This document shows positions 22,153-23,637 of a stretch of DNA of 46,353 nt, piece by piece. Every line of letters begins with the position of its first letter. The stretch's first letter is position 1. A program made the translations under genes and the position numbers. The stretch is from Chloroflexota bacterium (GTDB taxonomy: Bacteria > Chloroflexota > Dehalococcoidia > UBA3495). A model generated the notes under the pieces. That model had not been told where the DNA came from. It saw only the letters and a program-made list of their open reading frames with translations, and ran no database searches. Location: the NCBI GenBank assembly GCA_022563275.1, contig JADFNR010000009.1, positions 1 through 46,353 on the forward strand, read 5' to 3'.

Positions 22153-23637
22153 ATGCACAGCCGCTTATTCGCCGGCAAATTGGCCGCGCCGGAGTTTCCC
22201 CTGGGGCTGGAGTGGATCAACACGGAACAACCGATGACCCTGCGGGACCTCCAGGGCAAAATCGTGATCCTGGACTTCTGGACTTACTGTTGAATCAATT
22301 GCGCCCACATATTTCCGCAGTTGCGGAAACTAGAAAAGAAGTACGCCAACGTATTGGCCGTGATCGGAGTCCATTCGGCCAAGTTCCCCAACGAGAAGGA
22401 CACCTACAATCTGGCTAAAGCCGTCCACCGCTACCAGATAGAACACCCGGTGATCAACGACGGTCAGTTCCAGATATGGCGTGAATATTCTTGCCGGGCC
22501 TGGCCCACCCTGATGTTCATCGACCCCCAGGGCAACGTTGTCGGCAAACATGAGGGCGAGATGTCCTACGAGGACTTCGACGGGTTGATCAGCCAGATGG
22601 TGGCCGAGTATGACGCCCAGGGGACATTGGACCATCAGCCCCTGCCCTCCGGATACCGCCCGTCAGAAGACACCACCCTGAGCTTCCCCGGCAAGGTGCT
22701 GGCCGACGGACCGGAAAACCGCCTGTTCATCGCCGACACCAATCACAACCGCATCGTTGTCACCTCATTGGACGGCGCCCTGAAACAGGTGATTGGCAGC
22801 GGCGCGGAGGCCCTGACCGACGGGGGCTTTGCCGGATGCGCCTTCAACCACCCGCAAGGATTGGCGCTGGACGGCGAGACGCTGTACGTAGCCGATACCG
22901 GGAACCACGCCATACGCAGGGTGGACCTGGCCGCCGGGGTTGTGGAGACCATCGCCGGGACCGGGGAGCAGGGACACACCAGGGAAGGCCGGCGGCCGGG
23001 CCGGAACATGGAACTATGTTCTCCATACGACCTGTTGTATCACCAAGGGGTGATCTACATCGCCATGGCCGGCGTCCACCAGCTTTGGTCCATGGACCTG
23101 AATGACGGCATGATTGGACCCTTTGCCGGGACCGGAGGGGAGGCCATCACCGACGGGCCTTTGGGGACTGCTGAGTTGGCCCAACCCTGCGGCATTGCCA
23201 CCGATGGAATAAAGCTCTTCTTCACCGACAGCGAGACCAGCTCGGTGCGCTCGGCGGATATCGACCCAGCGGGGAACGTGCGGACCATCGTGGGCCTCGA
23301 CCTGTTCGTGTTCGGCGACGCCGACGGCTCGGACCACCACGTCCGCCTGCAACACCCCATGGGCATCGCCCACTACGACGGAGTCCTCTACATCACCGAC
23401 ACCTATAATCACAAGATCAAACGGGTGCTGCCGGCCACCAGGAGCGCGTTCACCGTGCTTGGGAAGGGCCCGCCGGGTCATGTGGATGGCGCTGCTGACG
23501 AAGCCCAGTTCTCCGAGCCCAGCGGCATCAGCTTCGCCAACGGCAAGATGTACATCGCCGACACCAACAACCACGCCATAAGGGTGGCGGATATAGAGAG
23601 CGGAGTCGTTTCTACTCTGGAGATAACCGGAATCTAG
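22153..23637 (+). CDS. Thioredoxin-like/NHL-repeat selenoprotein (in-frame TGA at codon 47)
   Basis: A 494-residue protein if the TGA at 22291-22293 is read as selenocysteine. The start is fixed by GGAGGAG (22144-22150) two bases before the ATG at 22153. Residues about 12-150 are a thioredoxin-like domain; the active site reads DFWTYC-Sec-INCAH, where NHLRC2-type relatives have Cys-Cys-Ile-Asn-Cys, so Sec47 and Cys50 form the redox pair. Residues about 165-490 are NHL repeats of a beta-propeller (LYVADTGNHAIRRVD, MYIADTNNHAIRVAD). No signal peptide is present. The reading frame is intact on both sides of the TGA, and a SECIS-like hairpin follows it. A conventional call would begin after the TGA and lose the active site. 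A cysteine-to-stop mutation or sequencing error is the alternative. Confidence 0.88.
22291..22329 (+). promoter_or_regulatory. Candidate bacterial SECIS element
   Basis: After the TGA (22291-22293) comes a perfect 7-bp hairpin, TTTCCGC (22312-22318) with GCGGAAA (22323-22329), around the loop AGTT. The loop has a G at its second position, and 25 nt separate the TGA from the loop. Known bacterial SECIS elements have a short stem, a G among the first two loop bases, and roughly 16-37 nt of spacing, so all three criteria are met. The element lies inside the coding sequence, as required in bacteria for SelB recruitment. Confidence 0.82.

Follow-up and report, generated by a model that had tools for sequence, protein, structure and literature searches.

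A thioredoxin-NHL propeller gene from Chloroflexota with a predicted selenocysteine at the first position of its redox motif

The closest described relatives of the protein considered here are human NHLRC2 and Arabidopsis SOQ1. According to the available text of the NHLRC2 structure paper (PMC6107167), Cys90 of NHLRC2 (motif residues 89-93) lies next to the cis-proline at the N-terminus of the first thioredoxin helix, protrudes from the protein surface, and sits near the propeller. The same text gives NHLRC2 an additional C-terminal beta domain and SOQ1 an additional HAD domain and transmembrane helix, both of the latter being absent from the protein described below; it reports no conserved gene neighbours in seven bacterial genomes, and neither 'selenocysteine' nor 'selenoprotein' occurs in it. 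The chemistry of the NHLRC2/SOQ1 family is still unsettled, as far as the consulted portions of the literature go (PMC6107167, PMC10173003). For the bacterial selenocysteine (Sec) insertion element (bSECIS), the constraints given in one figure legend are a loop of 3-9 nt, a stem of 4-16 bp, a G in the first two loop positions, a spacing of 16-37 nt, and a folding energy of at most -7.5 kcal/mol (PMC13188914, Fig. 2 legend).

The gene under study (Table 1) lies in a window, by which we mean the whole 46,353-nt stretch of DNA that was analysed. An earlier note on this DNA had described an ATG behind a GGAGGAG, followed by 46 sense codons, an in-frame TGA, and 447 further codons, and all of these coordinates were confirmed; the frame from the ATG at 22153 closes with a TAG stop at 23635-23637. 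The read-through product has 494 residues, with residue 47 read as U in DFWTYC-U-INCAHIFPQLRK. The TGA stands where the CxxC motif has its first Cys (DFWTYC-U-INC), as the note had proposed, and in the alignment it called for, homologues of the Cys form carry their Cys at the TGA position. Third-position GC was 0.83 on the 5' side of the TGA and 0.80 on the 3' side. In comparisons with six close relatives, dN/dS ranged from 0.12 to 0.34 over the 44 codons 5' of the TGA, which marks these codons as coding and under purifying selection, and from 0.07 to 0.14 over 105 codons 3' of it, which are likewise under purifying selection. Among 18 other window genes checked, 9 end in TGA, in keeping with what the note had said of TGA elsewhere in the window, and general TGA recoding was rejected on that count.

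Table 1. Positions of the gene, its signals and its predicted domains within the window
Feature	Position	Strand	Details
Trx-NHL selenoprotein gene (predicted)	22153..23637	+	494 aa with Sec47, TAG stop; from frame, domains and relatives
Ribosome-binding site GGAGGAG	22144..22150	+	upstream of ATG at 22153
Thioredoxin-like domain	22186..22602	+	about residues 12-150; Pfam and solved-structure matches
Putative Sec-UGA codon, residue 47	22291..22293	+	first position of UxxC redox motif, after Cys46
Cys50, second (resolving) Cys of UxxC	22300..22302	+	invariant in 20 rows, alignment A3
Bacterial SECIS-like hairpin UUUCCGC-AGUU-GCGGAAA	22312..22329	+	7 bp; loop 22319-22322, 25 nt after UGA; -9.3 kcal/mol
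Truncated ORF, 438 aa, TTG start	22321..23637	+	product of conventional calling; commonest length among database homologues
Pro118, thioredoxin cis-proline position	22504..22506	+	W117-P118 invariant in A3; cis-Pro role from available text of PMC6107167
NHL beta-propeller domain	22675..23634	+	about residues 175-494; Pfam and solved-structure matches

The window yielded no Rfam match at gathering thresholds, no similar DNA in a plasmid collection, and no tRNA gene along its 46,353 nt. Near the gene, on the minus strand, are a peptide chain release factor gene with PCRF and RF-1 domains (25161-26267) and a PrmC-like methyltransferase gene (24179-25042), both of which we judge to be ordinary housekeeping neighbours. 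Elsewhere in the window (6897-11450), a PIG-L deacetylase gene lies between genes for hydantoinase/oxoprolinase A and B subunits.

Pfam searches of the read-through product matched Thioredoxin_8 (E 8.9e-15, residues 35-129) and AhpC-TSA (E 1.2e-11, residues 12-130), followed by NHL repeats; both of the first two matches span the TGA, so the residues on either side of it belong to one Thioredoxin_8/AhpC-TSA domain. The best solved-structure matches by sequence were Arabidopsis SOQ1 (2e-130) and human NHLRC2 (1.4e-109), each nearly full length. The predicted order of domains, thioredoxin-like and then NHL propeller, is that of the NHLRC2/SOQ1 family; the family motif CC(I/V)NC appears here as C-U-I-N-C, where UGA fills the second position and the literal Cys-Cys pair is lost through that substitution. 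The C-terminal beta domain of mammalian NHLRC2 is absent, the window protein ending at residue 494 after the propeller. No signal peptide is apparent by eye at the N-terminus, which suggests a cytoplasmic location. In alignment A3, made from 20 chosen rows (L014, L035 and L067 were dropped because the supplied stretch contained another stop), Cys50 is invariant and Cys46 nearly so.

How such proteins have been recorded is indicated by a search in which about 5.8 billion proteins were screened and 7999 candidates scored. The best 120 of the 7999 are 425-453 aa long and all start at query residue 48 or later (74 at 57, 35 at 51, 4 at 48, and the other 7 at 53-70), so that the expectation of the earlier note, that standard annotation would begin after the TGA and lose the active site, holds for these 120. 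The names that sources give to such entries include 'alkyl hydroperoxide reductase', from Chloroflexi and SAR202 MAGs. No NCBIfam model scored over its cut-off among the 15 families matched at E up to 0.1, the nearest comparable model, WAxxUGC_long, reaching 13.9 against a cut-off of 300. None of the 119 selenoprotein families and subfamilies in Table 1 of PMC13188914 (2026) is named for NHL or propeller, and 'NHL' occurs 0 times in the available text of PMC12013277, PMC2398784, PMC5029168, PMC9402790, PMC5330540 and PMC1088965. A search of the literature on selenoprotein or selenocysteine with NHL, NHLRC2 or SAR202 (including PMC7479077 and PMC5649159, as available) found no Trx-NHL selenoprotein; its scope was mostly papers outside subscription, without their supplements, and within that scope it agrees with the remark in the note that Sec was not known for this fusion family. 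The Trx-NHL selenoprotein family is apparently undescribed.

The gene might nevertheless encode a selenoprotein of a family already described, either the UxxC 'Redoxin family protein' of PF08534 or the GOS groups 'Prx-like 3' and 'Trx-like 1'. The window protein does match PF08534 (E 7.5e-7) and PF00578 (E 1.2e-11), a UxxC 'Redoxin family protein' is listed in tables of 2022 and 2026 (PMC9312934, PMC13188914, in the parts available), and the GOS paper, in the text available, placed many UxxC reads under broad names (PMC2398784). We nonetheless consider this assignment unlikely: neither 'NHL' nor 'propeller' occurs in the available text of the two papers with tables, 'NHL' is likewise missing from that of the GOS paper, the Prx-like 3 fusion described there has a CxxC-bearing Unknown_3 domain, and no NCBIfam model passed its cut-off. 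The separation of the 'Redoxin family protein' and GOS groups from the window protein was made on their descriptions.

Evidence that the UGA encodes Sec in a distinct Trx-NHL family comes mainly from other genomes. A scan of genome contigs confirmed 116 relatives, and codons were counted in the best 80 of these. At the position of codon 47, TGA was found in 68, TGC in 11, and neither in one (L069); TGA at the identical codon in 68 of these 80 relatives is not a matter of chance. Since a set of best relatives leans to close kin, an even sample of 301 genomes was drawn from the phylum of G001 (locus L011, Dehalococcoidia). The gene was present in 64. In 46 of these the match held a single stop, a TGA; in 17 it held none; and one matched only from residue 175. 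The motif was read in every case: all 46 TGAs fall at the motif, and the 17 no-stop forms have TGC or TGT there. Ten of 60 genomes from the phylum of L063 (Methylomirabilota) carry the gene, nine of them with TGA, and in the phylum of L053 (Planctomycetota) 33 of 149 genomes gave 34 matches, five with TGA, the seed genome being included in both counts. For matches without a stop, the motif was read in 9 of 29 from the L053 phylum and in the single one from the L063 phylum, and Cys forms so read use TGC or TGT. TGA at the equivalent codon elsewhere, a check suggested in the note, was thus found repeatedly (68/80 among the best of 116, 46/64, 9/10).

Three loci in these sets deserve separate mention. 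The L053-phylum seed genome, G041, holds two copies of the gene, L205 and L206, one with TGA and the hairpin, the other with TGC and no hairpin. L069 reads WTYGSVAS at the motif, with neither Cys nor Sec, in a genome with selA and tRNA-Sec; it is possibly a non-redox descendant, and, having no Cys at the motif, it was left out of the Sec/Cys counts. L078 (G058) is labelled Rubrobacter sp.; it was found in the Dehalococcoidia-seeded phylum sample, and the tree also puts its gene on the Dehalococcoidia side, which makes the label probably wrong.

The window hairpin lies within every one of the bacterial SECIS constraints set out in the legend cited above (PMC13188914). A conserved bSECIS-like hairpin follows the codon in the majority of TGA forms and in few of the Cys forms. 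Among 69 TGA genes (68 loci and the window), all 7 stem pairs are present in 58 and at least 6 in 65; in the first set's 11 Cys genes the count never reaches 6. In the 301-genome sample, all 7 pairs are present in 41 of the 46 TGA genes and 6 pairs in one; the other four (L166-L169) show 3 in the standard register, their hairpin being shifted by one base, with a GUU loop. The 17 Cys genes of that sample include one with 6 pairs (L155), and the others have at most 4. Under our own coding of the published constraints, which admits contiguous stems only, a hairpin was accepted in 104 of 119 TGA genes and 2 of 38 Cys genes; of 2380 control positions taken elsewhere in these genes, 223 were accepted. 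The remaining 15 TGA genes failed the test, some clearly (L188, L203).

Comparative tests point to selection on this hairpin. In alignment A2 (a selection of 31 from the 69 TGA sequences) the covariation score was 0.316 as compared to 0.142 when shuffled, a value reached in 0 of 500 shuffles, and slid registers gave at most 0.154; changes on both sides were seen in 4 of 7 pairs, a count that 28 of 500 shuffles reached. The hairpin codons CCG, CAG, TTG and CGG are each present in 44 of 44 close relatives, as compared to a median dominant-codon frequency of 0.57 for 32 conserved 4-6-fold columns (three hairpin codons included) and a best value outside the hairpin of 0.82. To judge from these frequencies, the four codons are synonymously frozen and selection acts at the level of RNA. 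The loop-encoded residue is Gln in 68 of 69 TGA genes, whereas the first set's 11 Cys genes encode Glu, Asp or Lys there; in this way the need for an RNA structure shapes the protein sequence. Taken singly, the 60 nt after the UGA in the window fold unremarkably (z -0.80; 43 of 200 shuffles equally stable), and for the 13 genes tried, 0.35-43% of codon shuffles formed as many pairs as the gene itself (3.4% for the window); any single gene is therefore weak proof, and the case rests on comparison.

The machinery for Sec was sought in the genomes of relatives. In the genomes of the 68 TGA loci, selA, accepted at E up to 1e-20, was found in 28/33 and 31/35, or 59/68 (one of the 28 below the curated cut-off), and was not found in 9. 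A first search for tRNA-Sec (E 0.001) matched all 14 control genomes, so only scores of at least 64 bits were counted, with stricter cut-offs later; on this basis tRNA-Sec was found in 13/15 and 26/33, or 39/48, of the TGA-locus genomes searched, the search covering 48 of the 68. ARAGORN, run on 8 tRNA-Sec loci, called all 8 as tRNA-SeC(tca). A looser selB search also matched all 14 controls, and selB was therefore counted only above its curated cut-off. In the 301-genome sample, selA was present in 46 of 46 TGA genomes versus 199 of 255 others (Fisher p 4.8e-5), and among the TGA genomes tRNA-Sec passed the strict cut-off in 37 of 46 and selB the curated one in 44 of 46. Because selA occurs in 245 of the 301 genomes overall and in 14 of 17 Cys-form genomes, its co-occurrence has limited power in this phylum, and the latter figure shows that the Cys form there does not go hand in hand with losing the machinery. 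In the first set, 7 of the 11 Cys loci are accompanied by selA and 6 by tRNA-Sec, with G023-G026 lacking both. Neither selA nor a clear tRNA-Sec was found in five of the TGA genomes tested for both (G012, G015, G027, G029, G043), though G027 encodes a full-length SelB; our guess is that TGA genomes of this kind are incomplete drafts. The nine loci closest to the window (L001-L009) have selA in six genomes and selB in a seventh. A sponge-microbiome study, in the portion available, records SelA and SelB together in most symbiont bins, its SAR202 bins including bin87, a name that L034 also bears (PMC5649159). Most of the related genomes searched hold tRNA-Sec, selA and selB. Those sequence-level predictions of the note that were put to the test all held. 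Together with the conserved TGA, the bSECIS-like hairpin and the Cys homologues, this strongly supports the reading of the note that the gene encodes a selenoprotein.

Sequence comparison by itself cannot separate Sec from Cys inserted by one and the same machinery, and thiophosphate-dependent Cys insertion is known in some organisms. Were the TGA read as Cys or Trp, through a change of code or through Sec machinery inserting cysteine, the product would carry a thiol rather than a selenol. We regard this as very improbable, given that TGA ends 9 of 18 other window genes and so has undergone no general change of meaning, that the hairpin, tRNA-Sec, selA and selB indicate the standard Sec route, and that the Cys forms read use ordinary TGC or TGT. 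To a real stop, whether in a pseudogene, by assembly error, or between a short peptide and a separately initiated 438-aa propeller protein, we give almost no credence: gene callers and databases do pick a start 3' of the TGA, but the TGA recurs in 68 of 80 relatives (best 80 of 116) and in 46 of 64 homologue-bearing sampled genomes, the codons 5' of it are under purifying selection, the truncated form would lose UxxC, and the downstream hairpin tracks the TGA.

By the available sequence tests, then, this is a real selenoprotein gene, a predicted Sec variant of a known family. The explanation that we hold with high confidence is that of a Sec-form NHLRC2/SOQ1 protein, with Sec inserted by way of SelB and the hairpin and with redox action at Sec47/Cys50. 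In the mechanism we propose, SelB with Sec-tRNA-Sec would bind the AGUU hairpin 25 nt after the UGA and insert Sec at residue 47. Sec47, which appears to occupy the position of NHLRC2 Cys90, would be the N-terminal nucleophile of C-U-I-N-C and would attack a partner disulfide or other oxidised sulfur; Cys50 would then resolve the Sec47 intermediate, making the protein a thiol/selenol-disulfide oxidoreductase. The propeller would select the partner, its NHLRC2 homologue forming a cleft with the motif. We infer the Sec insertion itself, and likewise the chemistry and the partner of the window protein. Several TGA forms (L067, L079, L080, L172, L173, L203) have Gly or Ala at residue 46, and Cys50 is invariant in A3, which favours U47-C50 as the redox couple; a selenenylsulfide between the vicinal C46 and U47 is possible and is not required.

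The history of the position was approached with a quickly built tree that holds 107 Sec and 28 Cys rows (135 in all, 8 of 143 being left out as repeats). The Sec/Cys label needs 6 changes on this tree, as compared to 25.9 when shuffled. The window falls inside a 38-row all-Sec set, and three Cys groups (L127; L149; L150/L152/L153/L155) are nested in a 106-row group of which 100 are Sec, the placement expected of reversions. Because the tree search was short and 48 of 132 inner branches are open, we infer the direction of Sec/Cys change; the Chloroflexota seem to have had Sec at this position for a long time and, apparently, to have gone back to Cys several times. One member of the Cys clade with L150, L152 and L153, namely L155 (G367), has TGT at the codon and retains the AGUU loop and 6 of 7 pairs; its hairpin looks like a SECIS decaying after a Sec-to-Cys reversion. 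Reading these lines jointly, we think it likely that Sec is the usual and long-established state of Trx-NHL proteins in Chloroflexota and is present in at least two further phylum groups, that a large selenoprotein family has been missed by annotation because its entries start 3' of the UGA, and that repeated reversions mark the first CxxC Cys (human NHLRC2 Cys90) as the catalytic nucleophile family-wide.

Exchange of Sec and Cys is a classical mark of a catalytic redox Cys, and its occurrence here is evolutionary evidence for NHLRC2/SOQ1 redox catalysis at a specific residue. If true, the assignment of the nucleophile extends to NHLRC2, an essential human disease protein. The Trx-NHL proteins would add a selenoprotein family whose TGA form occurs in 46 genomes of an even sample of 301 from a large phylum and is cut short in the best 120 of 7999 database homologues. 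They would also offer a natural Sec/Cys series for enzymology and, in the Pro-Gln-Leu-Arg stretch, a case of RNA structure dictating protein sequence.

Placed beside the known systems, the window protein resembles human NHLRC2 (6gc1, 6g7w) and Arabidopsis lumenal SOQ1 (7djj, 7djk) in its thioredoxin-like domain and NHL propeller, over query residues 10-493, in a C-C/U-I-N-C motif at the equivalent place, and in the cis-Pro common to all three; it differs from them at the UGA, where NHLRC2 and SOQ1 have Cys. SOQ1 structure 7djk has Ser at that position and also in place of the second Cys, seemingly in a mutant construct. Bacterial Trx-NHL proteins of the Cys form (for example L043, L044, L051, L062 and L064) have the same domains and CCINC, with 48-55% identity to the window protein in A3; their codon is TGC, and they read P-E/D/K-L in contrast to the P-Q-L encoded by CCG-CAG-TTG in TGA forms. 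The bacterial UxxC selenoproteins of the thioredoxin fold (thioredoxin, Prx-like thiol:disulfide oxidoreductase, thiol-disulfide isomerase-like) share the placing of Sec at the N-terminal position of CxxC and, like the window gene, have an in-frame UGA with a bSECIS directly downstream.
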